NCBI GenBank assembly: GCA_026987995.1
Contig: JALSMC010000230.1
Coordinates: 1-10,824 of the forward strand
From: Sulfurimonas sp.
GTDB lineage: Bacteria; Campylobacterota; Campylobacteria; Campylobacterales; Sulfurimonadaceae
Reading direction: 5' to 3'
Length of the DNA stretch: 10,824 bases
Positions 42 through 10,725 of this stretch are shown here, piece by piece. Made by a program: the position numbers and the translations under genes. Positions within the stretch are counted from its first letter, which is position 1. Each line of letters starts with the position of its first letter. Below the pieces are notes generated by a model. The model was not told the origin of the DNA. It saw only the letters and a program-made list of their open reading frames with translations, and made no database searches.

Positions 42-500
42 TTAAGATAGCAATATCGGCTCTTTAAGGTGTGATTTATAGGTGATGTTTTCTTTATATT
101 TTTGAATCTTTTCTGCGACTTTAAAGAGTTCCGTATTGAGTACATTATAATCAAAAGGTTTGATAATATATCCATCTACATGAGACTTAATAGCTTCCAT
201 TAGGTAGTTTGAGTCAATATGTGCAGTAGTGATAACAATAGGAACTTCACTATCTACTTCTCTTATTTTACTTATCATGTCCGACCCATTCATCTTAGGC
301 ATTGAGATATCTGTAAGAACAATATCAAAATTGTTTTTATTAAATAGCTCTAAACCTTCTAAACCATTTGAGGCGAGAGTAACGGAGGCAAAAAGCTTTT
401 GTAGATAAAGTCCCATAGACTTTTGAATATCAAGTTCATCTTCTACATAAAGTATATTTAAATCTGTAGTAAACTTTTTTAATTCTTTAATATTGACCAT
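42..500 (-). CDS. Single-domain response regulator (REC only)
   Basis: A 152-residue CheY-like receiver that takes a phosphoryl group from a histidine kinase. The acidic pocket is E20-D21, the phosphoacceptor is D64 (LTDISMP), the switch Thr is T92 and the conserved Lys is K114 (IIKPFD), so it looks competent for phosphotransfer. After the receiver (about residues 12-130) there is only a short helical tail, residues 131-152, and no DNA-binding or enzymatic output domain. It starts 2 nt after the stop of the histidine kinase gene, which makes that kinase its likely partner and translational coupling likely; a weak AAAGG lies about 12 nt upstream, inside the kinase gene. The N-terminal half is close to that of the REC-PAS-PilZ protein at 3068-4567, about half identical over the first 72 residues by eye. 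It may act as a CheY-like protein-binding output or as a phosphate sink. The frame stays open after the stop codon to the window edge (13 codons), so a longer ancestral protein cannot be excluded. Confidence 0.9.
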   Translation of the reverse strand: MVNIKELKKFTTDLNILYVEDELDIQKSMGLYLQKLFASVTLASNGLEGLELFNKNNFDIVLTDISMPKMNGSDMISKIREVDSEVPIVITTAHIDSNYLMEAIKSHVDGYIIKPFDYNVLNTELFKVAEKIQKYKENITYKSHLKEPILLS

Positions 501-502
501 AT

Positions 503-2308
503 TTATTTATTGCCTTTTTTTTCAAAATCATAAGGTAATTTTATCTCAAAACAGACACCACTATTTTTATTAAATGCTATTATAGTACCCTTTAAGTGTT
601 TTTCTATGATTGTTTTACTCATATACAGACCTAAACCTGTACCATTTTTTTCATCTTTAGTAGTAAAATATGGATTAAATATTTCATCCATGATCTCCTT
701 ATTTATACCACCTGCATTGTCACAAACAGTAATTTTTATACTATTTTCATAAGATATAAGTTGAATTTTTATCTCTTGCTTATCTATATCTTTATCTATA
801 AATGCTTCTTTAGCATTTTTTATTATATTGATTAAAACTTGCATTAACTCTCTAGAAAAAGTTTTTATTTTTACCGAAACATCAATATCTAGTGCTAAAC
901 TTATATTATTGTTCTTTAATGACTTACCAATTATGGCTAAAGTTTCATCAATCACTCTTTTAATGTGTACTTCATCAGGATGTCTGTTTGGCTTAAAGAA
1001 CTCTCTAAAATCATCTATAGTTTGAGAGAGCTCTTGTGTTTGCTTGATTATATCTTTAGATATCTCTACAAGCTCATCATTATCAAGCAGGTCAAGCTCT
1101 ATATCTGCTTGTATATTATTAGCATCCATCGCAATAACACTGATGGGTTGGCGCCATTGATGCGCTATCATACTTATCATCTCACCCATTGCAGCATGAC
1201 GAGACTGTGCTATCATTATCTCTTCTTGTTCATGTAGTTCTGCTGCTTGTGTTTTTTCCTTTGTTATATCTGTATGAAAACCAACCATACGAATAGCCTC
1301 GCCTTTCTCATTAAAAAAAGTTTTCCCACGATCAAGTACCCATACCCAAGAGCCGTTCTTATGTCGAAGACGGTGTACTGTATGGTACTCATACTCAGGA
1401 TTTGCATGTGCCTTAGCAACTTCTTCAAGTGCATCTTCCAAATCATCAGGATGCACTCTACTCTCCCAAGTCTCAAACTCATTTTTTAGTTCATCATCTT
1501 TATATCCAAGCATCTCTTTCCAGCGAGGGGAGAAGTAAATGGTGCCCTCGGCTATATTCCAATCCCAAAGACCATCATTTGTTCCTTCTATAGCTAATGC
1601 ATACTGTTTGTTAAACTCTCTAAGTCTTCGCTCATTTTTACGAATCACATTCAAATACTTCTTAATCCTATTGCGAATATATAACATGAAAAGTATGAAA
1701 AAAGCAACAGTAAAAACACTTAGACTAATAATAACTCTATTAAAACTTAAAAATGTTTCATGAGCATTTTTTTGAAAAGTATTTGCCTTTGTGTGTGCAT
1801 ATTTGTAAAGTAAGCCTGCTGATTCTTCAAGGCTTTTTACATGTTCAGCACCTTTGTTTTTTGTTATAAACTCTGCCTCTTCAAATCTATTTTCTTCTAT
1901 AAGCCTTATAACCTCATCACGAATTGGCTTCCATTGATGAAAAAGTTCTTTTGTTTCTTTCTCTAGTGCTACACCCTTATCTCCTAAAATATCATTTTCT
2001 ATACTTTGAAGAGTTTTATAAACTACTTTTTCCTCTGTGTCTACTTTATCTATAAAAATGTGTCTCTCTTTTACTGTTGATGAAAGTACAATATCCTTCA
2101 TATCTCTATGTATCTTAATAACACTTTTTTGCACTAGTAAAGCGGCATTAGAGACTTTGAGTGGATGGTCATAAATACTTTCAACTGTTATATGTAACTT
2201 ATCTATAGTATAAAGACTTACTATATTTACTAGAAGGACAAACACTACACTAACTATCGCGAATATAGTTATTATTTTTCCTTCATTGTTTGGATTCATA
2301 TATTTCAT
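503..2308 (-). CDS. Membrane sensor histidine kinase, 4HB-MCP sensor plus PAS domain
   Basis: A 601-residue inner-membrane histidine kinase. Visible parts are TM1 (about 11-34), a mostly helical extracytoplasmic region (about 35-188) resembling the four-helix-bundle ligand domain of chemoreceptors (note YDHPLKVSNAAL near 46-57), TM2 (about 190-212), a PAS_3-type domain with PAC end (about 235-350), a dimerisation/phosphoacceptor segment with H383 in AHQWRQP, and a HATPase domain. The HATPase shows the N box (N493, N497), G1 box (DNAGG, 530-534), F box (NPYFTT, 545-550) and G2 box (GTGLGLYMSK, 556-565), so it should be active. It has no receiver of its own. The start used has AAGGAG about 5 nt upstream, overlapping the stop of the preceding di-iron gene (TAAGGAG); Met4 is a possible alternative start. 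The REC gene follows 2 nt after the stop. What it senses is not shown by the sequence; the neighbouring ODP-type protein is a candidate input through the cytoplasmic PAS or kinase core. Confidence 0.93.
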   Translation of the reverse strand: MKYMNPNNEGKIITIFAIVSVVFVLLVNIVSLYTIDKLHITVESIYDHPLKVSNAALLVQKSVIKIHRDMKDIVLSSTVKERHIFIDKVDTEEKVVYKTLQSIENDILGDKGVALEKETKELFHQWKPIRDEVIRLIEENRFEEAEFITKNKGAEHVKSLEESAGLLYKYAHTKANTFQKNAHETFLSFNRVIISLSVFTVAFFILFMLYIRNRIKKYLNVIRKNERRLREFNKQYALAIEGTNDGLWDWNIAEGTIYFSPRWKEMLGYKDDELKNEFETWESRVHPDDLEDALEEVAKAHANPEYEYHTVHRLRHKNGSWVWVLDRGKTFFNEKGEAIRMVGFHTDITKEKTQAAELHEQEEIMIAQSRHAAMGEMISMIAHQWRQPISVIAMDANNIQADIELDLLDNDELVEISKDIIKQTQELSQTIDDFREFFKPNRHPDEVHIKRVIDETLAIIGKSLKNNNISLALDIDVSVKIKTFSRELMQVLINIIKNAKEAFIDKDIDKQEIKIQLISYENSIKITVCDNAGGINKEIMDEIFNPYFTTKDEKNGTGLGLYMSKTIIEKHLKGTIIAFNKNSGVCFEIKLPYDFEKKGNK

Positions 2309-2316
2309 GTATCTCC

Positions 2317-3075
2317 TTAATACAACTCATCTAGTAAATCACTTCCACATTCTAACTCATCCAACCACTCTAAAAATAGCTCAATATTATCATCTTTAAA
2401 AACAAATCCATGCTGAGGGACTATCATACTAATGTTGAGTTGTCTCATCTCTCTCACCCAAGCTCTACATAATTTGTTTGAGCCCATATAGCGTTTATGA
2501 AAACCTGCTAAATGCTCTTTATGCTCTTCAAAGTTCTCTACCTGTTTGTGTTCAGGAGATGAAACTATAGCGGCTCCTATATCTCCCGAGAAAACTATTT
2601 TAGATTTTGTATCATAAAGGGAGAAGTTACCAGGAGAGTGTAAAAAGTGTGCAGGAATAAACTTTATATAATCCTCCCCGAACTTCAACTGTGCACCCTT
2701 ATCTGCCAAAGGCATCACCCGACTCATCTCCGTAAAACCATAGTGACTCATAAACCTAATCCAGATAGAGCTCATAATAAACTTCGCTTTAGTACTGATG
2801 GACCACTGCCCGATAGAGCCTGCCACATCAGGGTCTTGATGAGAAAAGAAGATATATTTAATATTTTCTATCTCTACATGCTCACTTACAGCCTCATACA
2901 TCTCATCAAAAATAGCCTCACTTCCTGGATCTATCAAAAAACCAGCACCATTTTTTACTATAAGGTATTGATTTACAGAGAGATAAGCATCTTCATGTGA
3001 CTCATCATCAAAACTAAACATAATATACTTGTGTGATTCATCCTCATATAGTATTTCATAATTTTTATTATCCAT
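2317..3075 (-). CDS. Oxygen-binding di-iron protein (ODP-like), flavodiiron-type MBL fold
   Basis: A 252-residue cytoplasmic metallo-beta-lactamase-fold protein of the flavodiiron class without the C-terminal flavodoxin domain of true flavodiiron NO/O2 reductases (about 400 residues). Metal-ligand positions follow the flavodiiron pattern closely: H79-x-D81-x-D83 (SHQDPDV), H146 (HSPGN), D165 (FSGDIG) and H222 (VPQHG). Glu at position 81 is replaced by Asp, and His at 84 by Val, compared with classical flavodiiron proteins. Stand-alone proteins of this shape in Treponema denticola and Thermotoga maritima (ODP) bind O2 as a stable di-iron peroxo species and modulate the chemotaxis kinase CheA; that is family knowledge. 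The gene lies between a REC-PAS-PilZ gene (8-nt overlap) and a histidine kinase gene (8-nt gap), which supports a sensor role rather than catalysis. A good SD (AAGGGG, 7 nt before ATG) sits inside the upstream gene. A catalytic role with a separate electron donor remains possible. Confidence 0.85.
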   Translation of the reverse strand: MDNKNYEILYEDESHKYIMFSFDDESHEDAYLSVNQYLIVKNGAGFLIDPGSEAIFDEMYEAVSEHVEIENIKYIFFSHQDPDVAGSIGQWSISTKAKFIMSSIWIRFMSHYGFTEMSRVMPLADKGAQLKFGEDYIKFIPAHFLHSPGNFSLYDTKSKIVFSGDIGAAIVSSPEHKQVENFEEHKEHLAGFHKRYMGSNKLCRAWVREMRQLNISMIVPQHGFVFKDDNIELFLEWLDELECGSDLLDELY

Positions 3076-4567
3076 TTTGCATCCCCTTAATTTCTCGAAT
3101 GAGTTCCATCTGTCTTTTTGTGATGTACTTCACTAAAGCACTCTTTTTTAAATCTTTAAACATAAAAACAAGACTAAAACTACGTTTTGACTCTTGCTTT
3201 CTAAATAGTGTCGCTTTTGTGTTAATGATGAGAGGTTTCTTATCTAACTCTAAAACCATATCTAAGACCACTTCACTCTCTTTATCTAAACCAGGAGGCA
3301 ACATTCCTAACTTTAATTTTACTGCATCAAGTGATATATCTTCTATCTCTGTGTCACCCTGATATTTTCTCTCATCTACAAAAAGAGAGACTGTCTGCTT
3401 TCCACTAGGAACTACACGAATAGTTTTTCTTGTAATAGGAGAAGTAGGTACAAACTTGAGTGTTTTAAAAGATATACTCTGCGTCTCAAAACTTATTCTG
3501 TCTATATTTGATGCTTCTATTGCATGAGGCAGAGCATCTGAAACTATGAGTGTTTTTTGCTCTATCTGTACTGCTTTTTGTTGCATATATGTTGTTTTTA
3601 TATCTAAGATACCATCTTCGATACTAGCTATTAAACTGTCATTTGTAATACTCAGACCTTTATAGTAGTTATGTAACTCTATCTTGGCATGATTGCGTTG
3701 TATAATCTCTAAAAACTTATATATAGCTGCTGTGTTAGAAGCCACATCATCTTTTTCACTCTCTCTTGCATCAAACAACTTGAGTAAATTTAGCTCTGTA
3801 ATGTCGTCAAATGATAAAACACCATAACCCTCTTTTTCAGGTATTGGCTGATACTTGATGATAAAGTGACAAGTTTTATCTTCTTTATTTTTCATCTTAA
3901 TGTTATAGAGTTTATTTGGATTGTTTTTCACTACTTCTAGTGCATCAGTCTCATCATGGTTATACAAAAAGTCTTGATGCTCTAAAAACCTATCTCCAAG
4001 CAGTGCTAAATGTTCTTTACACTCATCTACTGACTCAAAACCAAAGAACTCCAAGAAAGTGTCATTTGCTAAGACTACATTTGATTTTTGAAGTAAAACG
4101 ACCATAGAACTTTGGTATTCAAAGATATTTTTGAGATGCATTTGAAACATTCTTTCATGCTGCTCTTGCTTTATTTTCATTACTGTTTCATAGAGTACTT
4201 CTGAAAGTTCTGCGACATTTACAGGTTTTTTTAAAAAGCGAAATATCCCAAGCTCAATCCCCTCTAAAAGATACTCTTTATCATCATAGGCTGACATTAT
4301 TATGATTTTTGTCTCAGGATGAATCTTATGAATATGCCGACTCAGTTCCATCCCATCCATATTAGGCATTTTTATATCCGTAATAACTATAGGAAAGTGT
4401 TGTTTTTTAAAGAGGTCTAAACCTTTCTTCCCATCCTCCGCTAAAGAAACATGTGCAAAAAACTTTTTTAATAATTTTACAGCATTATTTCGCAGTGCTG
4501 TGTTATCTTCTACATAGAGGATACTGAGATGTTTGGTTAGGCTTTGTAGCTCTTTTAAGTTCGTCAT
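3068..4567 (-). CDS. Response regulator with REC, PAS and PilZ-type domains
   Basis: A 499-residue soluble protein. The N-terminal receiver (about 12-130) has E20-D21, phosphoacceptor D64 (ITDIKMP), S92 and K114-P115, all expected for phosphorylation. Residues about 145-258 look like a PAS domain, ending in LSFDDITELN. Residues about 298-375 (starting YYKGLSI) resemble the YcgR-like N-terminal domain that precedes PilZ in many proteins. The C-terminal part (about 377-490) resembles PilZ, the c-di-GMP receptor domain: R380-x3-R384 (RKTIR) followed by D410-x-S412-x2-A415. The last position is Gly in the usual D/NxSxxG motif, so c-di-GMP binding is likely but not certain. It overlaps the diguanylate cyclase gene by 4 nt (ATGA) and the ODP-like gene by 8 nt. 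Inference: it joins phosphorelay and c-di-GMP signals, perhaps acting on flagella or surface structures. The SD is weak (AGAGA), as expected for a start coupled to the upstream stop. Confidence 0.88.
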   Translation of the reverse strand: MTNLKELQSLTKHLSILYVEDNTALRNNAVKLLKKFFAHVSLAEDGKKGLDLFKKQHFPIVITDIKMPNMDGMELSRHIHKIHPETKIIIMSAYDDKEYLLEGIELGIFRFLKKPVNVAELSEVLYETVMKIKQEQHERMFQMHLKNIFEYQSSMVVLLQKSNVVLANDTFLEFFGFESVDECKEHLALLGDRFLEHQDFLYNHDETDALEVVKNNPNKLYNIKMKNKEDKTCHFIIKYQPIPEKEGYGVLSFDDITELNLLKLFDARESEKDDVASNTAAIYKFLEIIQRNHAKIELHNYYKGLSITNDSLIASIEDGILDIKTTYMQQKAVQIEQKTLIVSDALPHAIEASNIDRISFETQSISFKTLKFVPTSPITRKTIRVVPSGKQTVSLFVDERKYQGDTEIEDISLDAVKLKLGMLPPGLDKESEVVLDMVLELDKKPLIINTKATLFRKQESKRSFSLVFMFKDLKKSALVKYITKRQMELIREIKGMQNG

Positions 4568-5625
4568 GACATCTCTGCATCATTACTAATGAAAACATCA
4601 GAAACACGATTTTTACCTTTTGATTTTGCATCATACATTGCAGCATCTGCATTAGCGATTAAATGTTCTGTACTATTGTCACACTCCCACAGTGTTGCAA
4701 CACCAAAACTACAAGTAAACCTGTGAATAGGTTCGAGCTTCATAGATTCAACCGTAACTCTTAATTTCTCAGCTAACCGCAGTGCTCCTTCTTTATCAAG
4801 CATAGGAGTCACAATAATAAATTCCTCACCTCCCCATCTTGCCACACTATCACTGCCACGTACTTCACTTTGTACTTTGTGTGCTAATGCTTGGAGTACT
4901 TTATCTCCTATCTCATGCCCATAGTAATCATTTATTTTTTTAAAATCATCTATGTCAAAGAGGATTAAAGAGAGCGGGGTTTTATATCTATTTGCTTTAC
5001 TTGCTTCTTCTTTGAGTATTTCATTTATTTTTCTTCTATTGTACAAAGATGTGAGTGGATCTGTGTTTGAGAGTAGTTCTAAACTTTGATAGGAGTGTTC
5101 TAGTGCTATCTCCATACTAACAATCATCGCAGCTATAGTAAGTGAAGCAAAAACAAGTCTAAAAAAGGCTATCATATCCCACATACCATGATTCCATACC
5201 CCAATATTTATATATGCCAAGGTAAAAATGATTCCCAAATATATAGCACTGAGTAGTGTTCCCTTTTTTAGTCCAAGAAGAGTAATAGAAACTATAGGAA
5301 ACAACTGACTCCAAATAAGTCCAAAACTCGTATTTTGATTCACATATACAAAGGCGATGAAGAATACAAAAAACTCAACTATAACAGCATTACGAACCCG
5401 CCCGATTTTTTTGTTATATCGTAAATCTATAAGTAAAAGAGTAGAAACCAATGCTCCTGCAAAGTTTAAATATGCAGTAGTATGATGTCCCACAGCATAA
5501 TTAAATGCGATAAAAATAAGAAAAATAAAAGTGGAAACAGATAAAAAGATATTTAAAAGCACTAAATGTCGTATTAAACGGCTATCGTTTGTCTCTATAT
5601 CTGAAGTAAGTATATTCTTTAACAA
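4564..5625 (-). CDS. Membrane diguanylate cyclase (GGDEF), TTG start
   Basis: A 353-residue inner-membrane diguanylate cyclase that makes c-di-GMP from two GTP. The N-terminal part holds about six hydrophobic helices (near 20-42, 51-68, 78-96, 101-118, 122-142 and 152-175) with no recognised extracytoplasmic ligand domain. The catalytic domain starts at DPLTSLYNRR (189-198), with metal-binding D224 (LFDIDDF) and active site GGEEF (265-269). An intact inhibitory I-site, R256-x2-D259, lies five residues before GGEEF, so product feedback is expected. The start is TTG at 5623-5625: it has AGGAG 5 nt upstream, and the first in-frame ATG would be residue 148, inside the membrane region. It is the first gene of the signalling operon and its stop overlaps the next start in ATGA. 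A C-terminal tail of about 14 residues follows the cyclase domain. Confidence 0.93.
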   Translation of the reverse strand: MLKNILTSDIETNDSRLIRHLVLLNIFLSVSTFIFLIFIAFNYAVGHHTTAYLNFAGALVSTLLLIDLRYNKKIGRVRNAVIVEFFVFFIAFVYVNQNTSFGLIWSQLFPIVSITLLGLKKGTLLSAIYLGIIFTLAYINIGVWNHGMWDMIAFFRLVFASLTIAAMIVSMEIALEHSYQSLELLSNTDPLTSLYNRRKINEILKEEASKANRYKTPLSLILFDIDDFKKINDYYGHEIGDKVLQALAHKVQSEVRGSDSVARWGGEEFIIVTPMLDKEGALRLAEKLRVTVESMKLEPIHRFTCSFGVATLWECDNSTEHLIANADAAMYDAKSKGKNRVSDVFISNDAEMS

Positions 5626-5651
5626 GTATGCTCCTATAGAACTTCTACTTC

Positions 5652-5657
5652 ATTATA
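5652..5657 (-). promoter_or_regulatory. Candidate -10 element of the signalling operon
   Basis: A perfect TATAAT, read on the minus strand within TTTTATAATG, lies 26 bases before the TTG start of the diguanylate cyclase gene. It would give a leader of roughly 20 nt containing the AGGAG at 5631-5635. No good -35 box is present at 17 bp (TTACTT), but upstream sequence is T-rich, as is usual for sigma70 promoters of Campylobacterota. It sits in the 55-bp gap after selO, so the operon may be transcribed from here as well as by read-through from selO. Sequence-only prediction. Confidence 0.5.
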
Positions 5658-5680
5658 AAACCTTCTGTATTAAAAAGTAA

Positions 5681-7120
5681 TTAAGAAGAACAAGAAAGTT
5701 TGATGTTTTTAGACGAGAGGGGTACTGCTTTGCATAAATATTCTAGTCCTTCATGTTCATCAAATGGTTTATATGCCACCTTGAGTAAGTCATTTACCAT
5801 ACTAAAGTCATCAGCTTGTGCTTTTTCTATGGCTTCTTGAAGTATATGGTTTTTTAATATATATTTCGGATTTATAGCTAACATATTCTCATGGCGTTTC
5901 TCTGTTGACACATCTTCTTTTTCTAAACGCGACTCATACATATTTAACCACTTCTCTAGATGCTCTGTATTTATACAGATATCTAGTAAGGGAAATTTAT
6001 TGCCCTTATATCGTGAGAGTATTCTAAAAAAGAGTGTGTAGTCAACACTTGCCATCTCTAAAGAGCGAAACAGCTGGTAAATAAGATTTTCATCCTCTGC
6101 ATCTTGCATCTGTAAACCCAGTTTTTTTTGCATTATTTCACTATACTCTCTCTCTAGCAGTGGGCGAAAGAGATCATCTAAAATCTCATCCATCTCATCA
6201 TAGTTTATAATGGGTGAGAGTGCTACGGCTAAACGCTCTAAGTTCCACTGTGCTGTTGCTGGTTGGTTTGAAAATCTATACTGCCCATCTACATCCGTAT
6301 GGTTGCAAATATACTCTTTTTTATAGTCATCTAAAAAAGCAAAAGGTCCGTAGTCTATTGTTCTACCATCGATGGACATGTTGTCTGTGTTCATAACGCC
6401 ATGGTTAAAACCTACACTCTGCCATTTTGCTATTGTTAAAGCTGTGTTTTTTACTATCTCAGCATACATTTTCAAGTATGCATTCTCTTCACCTTTGAGA
6501 TGAGGAAATGATTCAGCTATAACATAATCAGCTAAAGTTTGAAGTTTTGAATGCTCCCCTGTAGAGTTAAAGTACTCAAATGTTCCAAAACGCACCCATG
6601 TAGGAGAAAGCCTTAAGACTAATGCCCCTTTCTCCCATCTAGCACGTGCTACATCTGTATCACTTCCTATAAGGGCTAAAGCACGAGTAGTACTTATACC
6701 CAAACCATGCATAGCCTCACTCACAAGGTACTCACGTATAGATGAGCGAAGAACTGCACGTCCATCACCTTGACGAGAGTACTCTGTAAGCCCTGCCCCT
6801 TTTACTTGCAAGTTCCAGCCATTAACTTTACCAAGATTTATAGCACGACCATCGCCTAAACGCCCTGCAAAATGCCCAAACTGATGTCCAGAGTAACACA
6901 TAGCAAAAGTTTCACTGCCCTCTAGTTTTTCACTTCCATTTATAATGCACAAGAGTTTATCATCAAGGTTTAAATCTTCATCGACTCCGAGAAGTTTTGC
7001 AGCATCCTGCGAAGTAGAGATAATAAAAGGTTTATCAAGTGGTGTTGGCTCTACTTTTGTATAAAAAGGAGCTTCTAGTTCTAGGTATGGGGTGGTAAGT
7101 TTTAGGTTTGAGAATTTCAT
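5681..7120 (-). CDS. selO: Protein adenylyltransferase SelO (YdiU family)
   Basis: A 479-residue member of the SelO/YdiU (UPF0061) pseudokinase family, which moves AMP from ATP onto Ser/Thr/Tyr of target proteins and is linked to redox stress. The family pattern is clear: CYSGHQFGHFAGRLGDGRA (75-93), nucleotide-contacting K107 in LQVKGAG, QGDGRAVLRSS (117-127), and metal or catalytic-loop residues D246-N247 (MNTDN) and D256 (TIDYGPF). Length matches bacterial SelO. The protein ends C477-S478-S479, encoded TGT-TCT-TCT, matching the place of the C-terminal selenocysteine (USS) of eukaryotic SelO; here it is a normal Cys codon. The start is chosen by alignment of the early FYTKVEPTPL segment with the family; no Shine-Dalgarno is visible before it. 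It is transcribed away from the nitroreductase-like gene and toward the signalling operon, 55 bp ahead of the diguanylate cyclase. Confidence 0.95.
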   Translation of the reverse strand: MKFSNLKLTTPYLELEAPFYTKVEPTPLDKPFIISTSQDAAKLLGVDEDLNLDDKLLCIINGSEKLEGSETFAMCYSGHQFGHFAGRLGDGRAINLGKVNGWNLQVKGAGLTEYSRQGDGRAVLRSSIREYLVSEAMHGLGISTTRALALIGSDTDVARARWEKGALVLRLSPTWVRFGTFEYFNSTGEHSKLQTLADYVIAESFPHLKGEENAYLKMYAEIVKNTALTIAKWQSVGFNHGVMNTDNMSIDGRTIDYGPFAFLDDYKKEYICNHTDVDGQYRFSNQPATAQWNLERLAVALSPIINYDEMDEILDDLFRPLLEREYSEIMQKKLGLQMQDAEDENLIYQLFRSLEMASVDYTLFFRILSRYKGNKFPLLDICINTEHLEKWLNMYESRLEKEDVSTEKRHENMLAINPKYILKNHILQEAIEKAQADDFSMVNDLLKVAYKPFDEHEGLEYLCKAVPLSSKNIKLSCSS

Positions 7121-7219: not shown

Positions 7220-8779
7220 ATGAATAAAAACCTACAAACAGTATTTAATTACCATCAAACTACAAAACACTCCCAACAGAGATATGCCCGTTCTCTTGGA
7301 TATATGGACTGGCAAACGCAGCCTAACCCTTTTAGAAGTTATAATGGAGCGGAGAGTTTTCTTCTACCTTTAGCCTTAGAAAACTCTACTCTTCCCTATC
7401 ATTTACTTGATTCTGACCTGCCCTCTGCTCCACTTCTCAAAGAATCACTCTCTCAACTTTTACAGTTTTCTATGGCAATTGCTGCTTGGAAGGTTTCAGG
7501 TGAGAGTTCATGGGCTGTTAGATGTAATGCTTCTAGTGGTAACTTGCATCCAACAGAGACTTATCTTATTTTACCACCTACTTTAGAAGAACAAAAAAAT
7601 AAAACATCTGTCTTTCACTACACAGCTAAAAATCATGGGCTTGAGATATTAAGTTCATTTGATACAGGTTTTTGGGATACCTTACCCAAAGGAAGTTTCC
7701 TTATGGGACTCTCTGGTATCTCATGGAGAGAAGCTTGGAAATATGGTGAGCGTGCGTTTAGATATGTAAACCTTGATGCGGGGCATGCTTGGCAATCCAT
7801 AAATGTATCTTCAAAGATGCTCGGATGGAAAGTCACACCTCTTAGCAATGTAAGTGACTCAGATATTGCAACTCTTTTAGGCTTAAACCAAGAGAAAAGA
7901 TTTTTTGAGAGGGAACATGCAGATATGCTTTTTGTAGTCTCCCCTGAAGTTGTAGACAATGCTTTAAGTATTGAGAGTTTACTTGGAGATGTTCCACTAG
8001 CCTTTGATGGTATAGCAAATAAACTCAGTCCAACAATGGAAAACTGGGAGATAATAGCAGAGGTAGAAAATGCCACTTCTGTGATGCAGGTAGCACAAAA
8101 AAATGTAGCCAAGAGTAAAGTTACACCCGAACCCACACAAGAGTCTAAAAAAGTAATCATGCAAAGAAGAAGTATCCATGTTATGGATAAGGTTCGTTCT
8201 GTTATCACTAAAGATGAGTTTCATACACTTTTAGCAGGTTGTGCAAATTCTCTCGATGGCAAAGAAAATGCAGCCCACTTGGCTATTTTTGTACATCGTG
8301 TAACAGGGTACGAGTCAGGTATTTACATACTAGTTCGTAACGAGAGAGATAAAGTTGCACTTCAAGAGCAGATGTTCACTGCGTTTAAGTGGGAAGAGTG
8401 TGAGTTTGATGGTCTGTATCTTTTAGATGAAAGAGATGCGATGGTAACAAGTCAAACAATTAGCTGTTCTCAAGAGATAGCAAGTGATGGTGCGTTTAGT
8501 CTAGGAATGTTATGTAACTTTTCAGAGCAGTTAAACACTTATGGGGCCCATAGATACAAAGAACTCTACTGGGAATGTGGTGCTATAGGGCAACAGCTTT
8601 ATCTTGACGCAACTTCAATGGGTCTTAGTGGAACAGGAATAGGATGCTTCTTAGATGATATGATGCACTCTGTTTTAGGTTTAGAGTCAAATGAGTTTCA
8701 AGTGCTGTATCACTTTACTGTTGGAAGAGGTTATGTTGATAGTCGTATTCAAACGCAAGTGGCGTATGAAGAAAGATAA
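7220..8779 (+). CDS. Tandem nitroreductase-fold (SagB/ThcOx-type) flavoprotein
   Basis: A 519-residue cytoplasmic protein with two nitroreductase-fold halves, probably FMN-binding. The N-terminal half shows RCNASSGNLHPTETY (101-115), typical of SagB/ThcOx dehydrogenases, and the helix RYVNLDAGHAWQSI (181-194). The C-terminal half starts after a Pro/Gln/Lys-rich linker (about 290-312) with MQRRSIHVMD (314-323), then HRVTGYESGIYIL (359-371) and ELYWECGAIGQQLYLDATSM (448-467) followed by GLSGTGIG, matching the same fold. It is therefore a fused, pseudo-symmetric pair; SagB proteins alone usually contain one domain. SagB homologues oxidise azolines in peptide natural products, but no YcaO, E1-like or precursor gene is present here, so the substrate is unknown and a general oxidoreductase role is likely. 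It stands as a single gene, divergent from selO, and ends before a strong hairpin. No Shine-Dalgarno precedes the ATG. Confidence 0.85.
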   Translation: MNKNLQTVFNYHQTTKHSQQRYARSLGYMDWQTQPNPFRSYNGAESFLLPLALENSTLPYHLLDSDLPSAPLLKESLSQLLQFSMAIAAWKVSGESSWAVRCNASSGNLHPTETYLILPPTLEEQKNKTSVFHYTAKNHGLEILSSFDTGFWDTLPKGSFLMGLSGISWREAWKYGERAFRYVNLDAGHAWQSINVSSKMLGWKVTPLSNVSDSDIATLLGLNQEKRFFEREHADMLFVVSPEVVDNALSIESLLGDVPLAFDGIANKLSPTMENWEIIAEVENATSVMQVAQKNVAKSKVTPEPTQESKKVIMQRRSIHVMDKVRSVITKDEFHTLLAGCANSLDGKENAAHLAIFVHRVTGYESGIYILVRNERDKVALQEQMFTAFKWEECEFDGLYLLDERDAMVTSQTISCSQEIASDGAFSLGMLCNFSEQLNTYGAHRYKELYWECGAIGQQLYLDATSMGLSGTGIGCFLDDMMHSVLGLESNEFQVLYHFTVGRGYVDSRIQTQVAYEER

Positions 8780-8821: not shown

Positions 8822-10725
8822 GCTACGATAGATTCCGCTGTAAAACCAAACTTCTCAAAAAGTAGTCCCGCAGGTGCTGAAGCACCAAATGTATCCATAG
8901 CTATCACAGTGTCTGCAAGTCTATACCACTCTAAACCACGAGCGGCTTCAATAGCTACAGTTTTAGTACCTTCTAGAATAATCGAGTCCATATATCCCTT
9001 ATCTTGTTCAATGAAAAGGTCGTAACAAGGAACTGAGACAACATTAGCTTTTACACCCTCCGCATTAAGTGTCTCTTTTACTTTAAGAGCTAACTCAACT
9101 TCACTTCCTGAAGCCATAAGAGTAACAGTTGCATTTTTATCTTGAGCTAGTAAGTATCCACCGCGAGAAGCTTCACCTCTTATTGCTTTTGGTAAAACAG
9201 AGAGGTTTTGACGTGAACATACAAATGCAGATGGAGATTTTCTCATCTCTAAGGCTGTTTGCCATGCTTGAATATTTTCTGCTCCATCAGCTGGACGCCA
9301 TACATAGAAGTTTGGTAATGCACGAAACTGTGAAAGGTGTTCTATTGGTTGGTGTGTTGGTCCATCTTCACCTACACCTATACTATCGTGAGTCCAGATA
9401 AAGAACTGCTGTATTCCCGTAAGGGCGGCTATACGAGCTGCTGGTTTTAAGTAGTCGGAGAAGACAAAAAACGTAGCTGAAAACGGCATAAGTGGACCAT
9501 AAAGTGCCATCGCATTTACTATAGAAGCCATAGCATGCTCACGAATACCAAAGTAGATATTTCTACCTTTAGGATAAATACCCATATCATTGAGGTTTGT
9601 TTTGTTAGAGGGGCTAAGGTCAGCACTTCCACCTAAGAAAGATGGAATCCCTCTTGCAATAGCATTCATGATTTTACCATTTGTCCCACGTGTCGCTTCT
9701 GCTTTATCAAATGTTGGATAGTTGATACGAGAAAAATCAGGATTTTGCAGTGCACTTAATGCTTCATTTTGCTCCATTAGCGGAAGAGTTTTTTGTCTAT
9801 GAATCCACTCGCGTTCAAGTAAGTCTCCATGCTCTATAGCACAACGAAATCTCGCCATGATATCTTCAGGAACAAAAAACTTTTTCTCTGGATCAAAGCC
9901 AGCATCAGTTTTTGCTTTAGCAATAATAGCATCACCTAAAGGAGCACCATGAGCATGATGTGAACCCTCTAGCTCTCCTGCACCTTTAGCTATAATTGTG
10001 TGAGCAATAATAATTGTTGGTTTTGTATTTGATTTTGCTTCGAGGATAGCATCATTTATCTCATCGTAATTATGTCCATCTATCTCTAAAACATCCCACT
10101 CTTGTGATTCAAAACGCATACGAATATTTTCAGAAATACTTAAATCAGTACTCCCTTCAATAGTAATATTATTCGAATCATAAATAAGGATTAAGTTGTC
10201 AAGTTTGTTGTGACCAGCGATAGAACAAGCTTCATAAGAAAGACCCTCTTCTAAATCACCATCACCACATAAACAATAAACTGTGTGGTCAATCAACTCA
10301 GCAGTATCAGAGTTCACTTGAGCACCTACAAACTTAGAAGCCATTGAAAAACCAACTGCATTTGCTACACCCTGACCAAGTGGACCAGTGGTAATCTCGA
10401 TACCTTTAGTATGACCGTATTCTGGGTGACCTGGAGTAAGAGAATCCAGTTGACGGAAGTTTTTTAAGTCTTCTATCTCTAAACCGTATCCCCATAAATA
10501 ATAAAGAGAATAGATAAGACCCGTTGCATGTCCACCTGAGAACACTAACCTATCACGGTTTAACCAGTCTGGATTTTTAGGGTTATGGTTTAAGTGCTCA
10601 CCTAAAACGACAGCGATATCTGCTAATCCCATCGGTGCACCTGGGTGACCTGAATTAGCCGCTTGAACCATATCTGCTGCTAAAAATCTAATGCTATCGG
10701 CCATTCTTTTGCGTGTATCATTCAT
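8809..10725 (-). CDS. tkt: Transketolase
   Basis: A complete 638-residue thiamine-diphosphate enzyme that moves two-carbon ketol units between sugar phosphates in the non-oxidative pentose phosphate pathway, providing ribose-5-phosphate and erythrose-4-phosphate. Visible family marks are H27 (NSGHPGAP), H66 (SGGHATG), TTGPLGQG (112-119), the ThDP/Mg motif beginning GDGDLEEG (154-161) and ending NN (185-186), H256-H257 near AKGAGELEGSHHAHG, catalytic E396 (GIREHAM), and THDSIGVGEDGPTHQP (445-460) with H458. The pyrimidine-binding domain (about 335-500) and C-terminal domain (about 515-638) are both intact. The start has AGGAT about 10 nt upstream. A reading frame from upstream ends only 22 nt before the ATG, so tkt is probably in an operon with it. 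Its stop codon lies inside the terminator hairpin. Confidence 0.97.
   Translation of the reverse strand: MNDTRKRMADSIRFLAADMVQAANSGHPGAPMGLADIAVVLGEHLNHNPKNPDWLNRDRLVFSGGHATGLIYSLYYLWGYGLEIEDLKNFRQLDSLTPGHPEYGHTKGIEITTGPLGQGVANAVGFSMASKFVGAQVNSDTAELIDHTVYCLCGDGDLEEGLSYEACSIAGHNKLDNLILIYDSNNITIEGSTDLSISENIRMRFESQEWDVLEIDGHNYDEINDAILEAKSNTKPTIIIAHTIIAKGAGELEGSHHAHGAPLGDAIIAKAKTDAGFDPEKKFFVPEDIMARFRCAIEHGDLLEREWIHRQKTLPLMEQNEALSALQNPDFSRINYPTFDKAEATRGTNGKIMNAIARGIPSFLGGSADLSPSNKTNLNDMGIYPKGRNIYFGIREHAMASIVNAMALYGPLMPFSATFFVFSDYLKPAARIAALTGIQQFFIWTHDSIGVGEDGPTHQPIEHLSQFRALPNFYVWRPADGAENIQAWQTALEMRKSPSAFVCSRQNLSVLPKAIRGEASRGGYLLAQDKNATVTLMASGSEVELALKVKETLNAEGVKANVVSVPCYDLFIEQDKGYMDSIILEGTKTVAIEAARGLEWYRLADTVIAMDTFGASAPAGLLFEKFGFTAESIVAKIK

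Follow-up and report, generated by a model that had tools for sequence, protein, structure and literature searches.

An oxygen-binding di-iron protein gene kept beside the gene for a YcgR-like response regulator in Campylobacterota

The window examined here, 10,824 bases long, is the whole of contig JALSMC010000230.1, part of a draft genome of Sulfurimonas (334 contigs, 2.02 Mb, 81.6% complete). It encodes an oxygen-binding di-iron protein (ODP) directly downstream of a response regulator built from REC, PAS and PilZ domains, called here RPP. These two genes form a conserved pair in Campylobacterota. The pairing suggests, as far as sequence can tell, that cyclic di-GMP (c-di-GMP) signaling, and not the usual chemotaxis receptor, conveys the oxygen or iron signal in these bacteria.

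Campylobacterota such as Sulfurimonas, Sulfuricurvum and Sulfurospirillum inhabit zones in which O2 meets reduced compounds. At such an interface, these bacteria must choose between swimming and attaching. The RPP-ODP pair is a concrete candidate for the machinery behind that choice, as it unites a non-heme sensor of O2/Fe with a likely effector of c-di-GMP signaling.

The pair emerges from gene neighborhoods. Here, an ODP alignment was used to scan one genome per species, and the best 80 of 478 encoding stretches were taken. Of these loci, 59 were treated as Campylobacterota, 57 by their titles and two titled only "bacterium" (L145 and L154) by sequence. RPP lies directly upstream of ODP, on the same strand, in 54 of the 59. 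Five loci depart from this pattern: RPP is a few genes away in two (L184, L192), the contig ends in two more (L137, L151), and the last (L163) has no RPP beside its ODP. The two genes overlap by 8 nucleotides (nt) in 21 of the 54 loci and by 11 nt in 15, with larger overlaps in a few loci that may come from the mechanical choice of start. This conserved overlap suggests that the two proteins are produced jointly. An order-wide survey of 398 genomes, which overlaps the 59-locus sample in that both hold species representatives, delivered 24 strong ODP matches (>260 bits) besides that in the window. RPP is adjacent to ODP in 20 of these, nearby in three, and not beside it in one.

In the window, the pair sits in a row of five co-directional open reading frames (ORFs) on the minus strand (Table 1). 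Their junctions, in the order of transcription, are overlaps of 4 and 8 nt and then gaps of 8 and 2 nt, confirming what a sequence-only reading of this DNA had described. Pfam assigns to them, in the same order, MASE6 and GGDEF; REC and PAS; ODP; 4HB_MCP_1, PAS_3, HisKA and HATPase_c; and REC. That reading took the five as a single operon whose gene order should be conserved, an expectation that did not survive the comparison. A MASE6-GGDEF gene is directly upstream of RPP in none of the 59 ODP loci and in none of 28 further RPP loci, and a GGDEF gene of any kind is found there in two of the 59. The MASE6-GGDEF cyclase is not a conserved member of the cluster. No locus keeping all four other genes of the five-gene order was seen among those surveyed. 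A gene for a REC-HD-GYP protein is downstream in 19 of the 59 loci and upstream in two more, and the order ODP, kinase, REC-HD-GYP is found in ten (L136-L139, L141-L143, L160, L172 and L175). The real conserved unit is the RPP-ODP pair, not a five-gene operon. The sequence-only reading had offered the kinase and the PAS-PilZ regulator as alternative targets for the ODP, and the counts of 54 in 59 loci and 20 in 24 strong matches favor the regulator.

On profile and alignment evidence, the third gene of the row encodes a true ODP-family protein that carries all six iron-ligand positions. PF19583 matches it with 247.1 bits against a cut-off of 27.2 (E 1.7e-73). Its best matches among solved structures are two ODPs, 6qnm (E 2.1e-74) and 6qrq (E 8.3e-71), each aligned over nearly the full length. 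Residues H79, D81, D83, H146, D165 and H222, which we take to be the iron ligands of the family, are identical in both. These six positions are invariant in 26 of 26 aligned ODPs, and are kept in 24 of 24 when the window ODP is set beside 23 distant or fused ODPs. The call of an ODP-like di-iron protein, first made without any search, is therefore borne out. Binding of O2 or Fe(II) by the window ODP is what knowledge of the family would predict.

RPP begins with a REC domain (D64, K114), followed by PAS and then by a YcgR-like PilZN-PilZ half, with RKTIR from residue 380 and DISLDA from residue 410. Pfam recovers REC and PAS; its PilZ match, at 13.2 bits, is under the cut-off of 22.5. Because a fold search with the whole protein gave almost only REC matches, a structure was predicted for the C-terminal 228 residues by themselves and used in a separate search. 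The predicted fold of this half is like that of YcgR/MotI, PilZN and then PilZ. The earlier description of a REC-PAS-PilZ regulator thus holds, by Pfam for its first two domains and by fold for its third. Of the two c-di-GMP motifs, RxxxR is present as RKTIR, and [D/N]xSxxG as DISLDA, with A in the place of G. From what is known of these families, the PilZ domain is predicted to bind c-di-GMP and the adjacent kinase to phosphorylate RPP.

Outside Campylobacterota, ODP keeps different company. The other 21 of the 80 loci come from Thermodesulfobacterium, Aquificales, Spirochaetes, Mesoaciditoga, Athalassotoga and others, and none of the 21 has RPP upstream of ODP. In 19 of them, the gene directly downstream of ODP encodes a protein of 277-319 residues, in which Pfam finds MCPsignal in all five cases tested. 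A motif for methyl-accepting chemotaxis proteins (MCPs) was found in eight of the 21 loci, and missed one (L196) where Pfam finds MCPsignal. Judged from these genes, the layout outside Campylobacterota is the known ODP-receptor layout. In a tree of ODPs, made by a quick method with SH-like approximate likelihood ratio (SH-aLRT) support only, a single change parts these 21 loci from the rest (support 93). The same sensor protein has chemoreceptors as neighbors in several phyla and, in another phylum, a regulator of the c-di-GMP type.

Within the order itself, a choice of 23 more distant loci was drawn from the weaker ODP matches. Four of these (L064, L067, L068, L129) were run through Pfam, and the others were typed by similarity to domains of the window. 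Seven encode ODP-kinase fusions, three encode proteins of about 960 residues of an ODP-GAF-kinase-REC-REC type, and three encode ODP-GGDEF fusions. In eight more, a stand-alone ODP has GGDEF or kinase genes next to it, and the remaining two lack such a neighbor. Given these fusions and neighbors, ODP input to kinases and c-di-GMP enzymes looks common in the order. Among the histidine kinase fusions, L067, L069, L070 and L135 have a response regulator of 229-231 residues encoded directly downstream, in L067 with a Trans_reg_C output domain. The GGDEF fusions (L064, L132 and L133; 548-587 residues) are apparently O2/Fe sensors built onto a diguanylate cyclase. The proteins of about 960 residues (L129, L130, L131) have REC and kinase genes beside them, and Pfam reads L129 as ODP-GAF-HisKA-HATPase-REC-REC.

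How might ODP and RPP work together? The favored reading, with roughly even prospects of being right, is that ODP acts on RPP as its dedicated sensor subunit for O2/Fe(II). Of the apo, reduced and peroxo states of ODP, one would bind RPP through its PAS or PilZN domain, and this binding would alter the effect of RPP on its target (the flagellar motor being the most likely one). RPP would also be phosphorylated by the neighboring kinase, with Asp64 of REC as acceptor, and would bind c-di-GMP. In relatives where the gene is intact, the same kinase would probably also control the REC-HD-GYP phosphodiesterase, an enzyme that lowers c-di-GMP. The unit would in this way sum O2/Fe(II), a kinase signal and c-di-GMP into one motility decision. 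Two steps here, the action of ODP on RPP itself and that of RPP on the flagellar motor, we infer.

A fuller version of this reading makes RPP a brake of the YcgR kind with three gates: REC would take up phosphate, PilZ would bind c-di-GMP, and ODP, docked on PAS or PilZN, would report its O2/iron state. A c-di-GMP receptor would then be under the direct control of ODP, with no receptor, kinase or cyclase in between. This version is tentative, and we regard it as rather doubtful. If it were true, oxygen would be sensed at the effector end of the c-di-GMP pathway.

YcgR is described in the available part of PMC11800159 as acting on the flagellar motor, and the same is expected of MotI. FliG is found in all 41 counted genomes with a full-length RPP and in 331 of the 398 genomes of the order overall (Fisher p 6e-4, without correction for relatedness). 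The 41 leave out G021, which is FliG-positive and has a nearly full-length RPP match 27% identical, and G178; with both, the count is 42 of 43. Within one family, f6, the only FliG-positive genome (G295) is also the only one with a full-length RPP, there beside ODP. None of eleven other f6 genomes with ODP matches of the distant kind is FliG-positive. Those whose ODP-kinase fusions were inspected, G151 (L069) and G205 (L135), have no FliG match, so ODP-kinase fusions do not need flagella. RPP-ODP, unlike these fusions, has so far been seen together with flagella.

Several observations, of course, weigh against the proposal that ODP acts on RPP. The interaction of the two proteins, O2 binding by ODP and c-di-GMP binding by RPP are all predictions. 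No RPP-ODP fusion was seen in the loci surveyed. The PilZ motif of the window RPP is imperfect, A415 replacing G; more widely, RxxxR plus [DN]xS are found in 48 of 55 ODP-linked RPPs, and only nine of those 48 also keep the G. Eleven alignment columns mark ODP-linked RPPs (frequency difference >0.5), three in PAS, three in PilZN, three in PilZ, one in REC and one in the helix between. No one docking domain appears to be singled out by them, and the C-terminal ones may stem from the overlap of the RPP gene with ODP. FliG is common across the order, and the G178 genome (60% complete) has a partial RPP-like match beside ODP and no FliG match. Further, RPPs without ODP outnumber those with it: 50 full-length RPP matches outside the window genome divide into 19 next to ODP, three near ODP and 28 others. 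ODP is therefore not essential to RPP. Last, in a tree of 84 RPPs, the ODP-linked label is strongly clustered (10 changes, versus 24.2 in shuffles), but the notion that ODP-linked RPPs form one clade was rejected, as at least seven of the 10 changes are forced by well-supported branches.

The 28 others were retrieved because they did not coincide with an ODP match: ODP is missing from the stretch in 27 of them, and in one (L106) a remnant of 85 residues is all that stands in ODP's place. That remnant, at 5432-5689, lies beside an intact RPP; at L188, ODP is split over two ORFs, from position 9998. Such cases may mean that loss of ODP is under way in some lineages, or may be sequencing errors. 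ODP of the Campylobacterota type is seldom found without RPP; RPP is often found without ODP. In nine of the 27 ODP-free loci (two of the 27 have no downstream gene in the stretch), a kinase gene is the next one after RPP. Thus, kinases pair with RPP whether or not ODP is present. We read this as a kinase-RPP pair that would have gained ODP and then lost it several times, the direction of change being unproven.

The leading competitor to RPP as the target is the histidine kinase. Here, ODP would act on the PAS domain of the kinase, much as the Treponema ODP is believed to act on CheA by way of a receptor; RPP and REC-HD-GYP would only receive phosphate. A kinase with a window-like kinase part is the next gene after ODP in 21 of the 59 loci and lies within four same-strand genes in 26 (similarity >40 bits), and at least one such kinase (L148, 382 residues) is short, with PAS and kinase domains only, and could need a separate sensor. 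The distant loci, with their seven ODP-kinase fusions in 23 and three more ODPs in longer proteins of hybrid-kinase type, lend it further weight. However, at the 40-bit threshold, such a kinase is missing from the next four same-strand genes in 33 of the 59 loci (three of these stop at the contig edge, and others run out of genes early), and a kinase follows RPP directly in the nine ODP-free loci as well. The kinase is therefore the less supported of the two targets originally offered, and we consider its being the site of action unlikely.

Two further accounts give ODP no part in this pathway. In one, judged quite improbable, ODP is a di-iron enzyme with a metabolic or protective role, handling O2, NO or peroxide, that is co-transcribed with regulators and does not signal. 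It is indeed homologous to the flavodiiron NO/O2 reductases, 4dik, 1vme and 4d02 being among its structure matches. Against this, Pfam finds no flavodoxin or rubredoxin domain in ODP or among the window genes, fusions of related ODPs to kinases and cyclases exist, and a Treponema ODP acts as an oxygen sensor in the account seen of PMC7666581. In the other, still harder to credit, ODP serves a chemotaxis array whose MCPs and CheW-domain proteins are encoded elsewhere, and its place by RPP reflects shared regulation of motility genes. The sequence-only reading had stressed that CheA, CheW and methyl-accepting receptors are missing. This is true of the window, where none of eight annotated ORFs is an MCP gene and the neighbors of ODP are RPP and the kinase, but not of the genome, which gives 10 MCP-signaling, six CheW-domain and two flagellin matches. 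ODP does adjoin a soluble MCP outside Campylobacterota, and an MCP-like motif lies within two genes after ODP in one of the 59 loci (L178). The other 58 have no such motif within two downstream genes, as judged by a motif that misses some MCPs, and the conserved 8- or 11-nt overlap suggests that ODP is produced jointly with RPP.

The proposal that ODP acts on RPP has relatives among known systems. In the Treponema denticola system, as presented in the portion of PMC7666581 consulted, the ODP TDE2498, with TDE2496, acts as an oxygen sensor and is a stand-alone ODP encoded beside its presumed partner. The window ODP is of the same family as the ODPs of Treponema and Thermotoga maritima, with the same ligand positions, and ODPs from four Treponema loci found here are 43-45% identical to it. 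It differs in having as its neighbor an upstream YcgR-like response regulator, not a downstream soluble MCP. Muok et al. (2019), as summarized in the TREND paper (PMC7319448, seen in part), found that ODPs can share operons with genes for other signaling proteins or be fused to signaling domains. The recruitment of ODP to several signaling routes is alike here, and the ODP-kinase and ODP-GGDEF fusions belong with those cases; no PilZ partner, however, is named in that summary. Muok et al. may already list the pairing of ODP with a PilZ regulator.

RPP, in turn, resembles the flagellar brakes YcgR, MotI (DgrA) and FlgZ in PilZN-PilZ architecture and fold and in its RxxxR and DxS positions (PMC11800159, in the sections available). 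It differs from them in having REC and PAS in front, in the A for G in the window motif, and in being encoded by an ODP-paired gene. The hemerythrin-coupled c-di-GMP enzymes (VcBhr-DGC, Bhr-HD-GYP) also bring a non-heme di-iron O2/redox input to c-di-GMP signaling, to go by excerpts of PMC8846402. There, however, the domain is another, is fused to the enzyme and acts on synthesis or breakdown, whereas ODP is encoded by a separate gene beside that of a putative c-di-GMP receptor. The O2 sensors described in the excerpts of that census of c-di-GMP sensory domains are hemerythrin, protoglobin and PAS; in them, "lactamase" has no match, and the one "di-iron" passage concerns hemerythrin (PMC8846402). 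Among the matches listed from the open-licence literature, no title or abstract opening describes an ODP-RPP pairing. The ODP family, its recruitment to diverse signaling and PilZ effectors were known already, and the conserved pair of ODP and RPP, a YcgR-like regulator, appears to be a variation on them.

The membrane histidine kinase is the likely cognate kinase of RPP and of a REC-HD-GYP protein that is interrupted in the window. The fifth gene had been described as a lone REC. The possibility that it encodes a single-domain REC regulator was dropped, as it proved to be the stump of a phosphodiesterase gene. Its 152 residues align with the opening stretch, ~147 residues long, of REC-HD-GYP proteins of 492-495 residues in relatives, with identities of 65-69% in four of the nearest (L136, L137, L138 and L141) and of 52-57% in L139, L142 and L143; in all seven loci, the relative that includes the HD-GYP part comes after the kinase. 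Past the match, a few unrelated residues lead to a stop at 42-44, and the last four codons or so, together with the stop, lie inside a repeat. No HD-GYP domain is present in the gene at 42-500, which has the REC part only and then the repeat.

A search of the genome found bases 1-57 of the window again at seven places, with 100% identity over 55-57 nt, and at an eighth with 94% over 68 nt. All eight copies lie no more than 71 nt from contig ends, and they diverge from the window and from one another just past base 55. On the inner side of these other copies, an ORF end is readable by eye, as for a transposase terminus. The simplest reading, from sequence comparison, is that an insertion-sequence end interrupts the REC-HD-GYP gene and breaks the contig. 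A query for the missing half, taken from a homolog with 51% identity in its REC part, had no strong match in the draft genome (the best HD-GYP match is 31% identical). This half may therefore be outside the assembly or lost.

Table 1. Features of the signaling cluster and the adjoining contig tip, in window coordinates.
Feature	Position	Strand	Basis
MASE6-GGDEF diguanylate cyclase	4564..5625	-	Pfam; overlaps RPP by 4 nt
REC-PAS-PilZ gene (RPP), 499 residues	3068..4567	-	Pfam and fold; last 8 nt overlap the start of ODP
ODP, 252 residues, oxygen-binding di-iron family	2317..3075	-	Pfam PF19583, PDB matches
Membrane histidine kinase, 4HB_MCP_1 sensor + PAS_3 + HisKA + HATPase_c	503..2308	-	Pfam
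REC stump, 152 residues, of a REC-HD-GYP phosphodiesterase	42..500	-	Homolog comparison; repeat at end
End of a multi-copy repeat, insertion-sequence-like terminus, contig tip	1..55	no strand	Eight other copies

Because the window spans an entire contig of the draft assembly, the sequence downstream of base 1 is out of view. The nearest named loci to the window proteins, in the ODP scan and the RPP tree, are metagenome-assembled genomes of Sulfurimonas. The MASE6-GGDEF cyclase carries GGEEF, with an RxxD motif, read by eye, five residues ahead of it. Three genes lie upstream of the cluster, for a SelO protein, a SagB-like protein (encoded on the opposite strand) and a transketolase. The SagB-like protein (519 residues, 7220-8779, plus strand) has two matched stretches (TIGR03605, 110.6 bits against a cut-off of 78.4), and no other peptide-maturation gene is among the ORFs scanned in the window. 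The SelO/YdiU-family gene (5681-7120, minus strand) is directly upstream of the signaling cluster, on the same strand.

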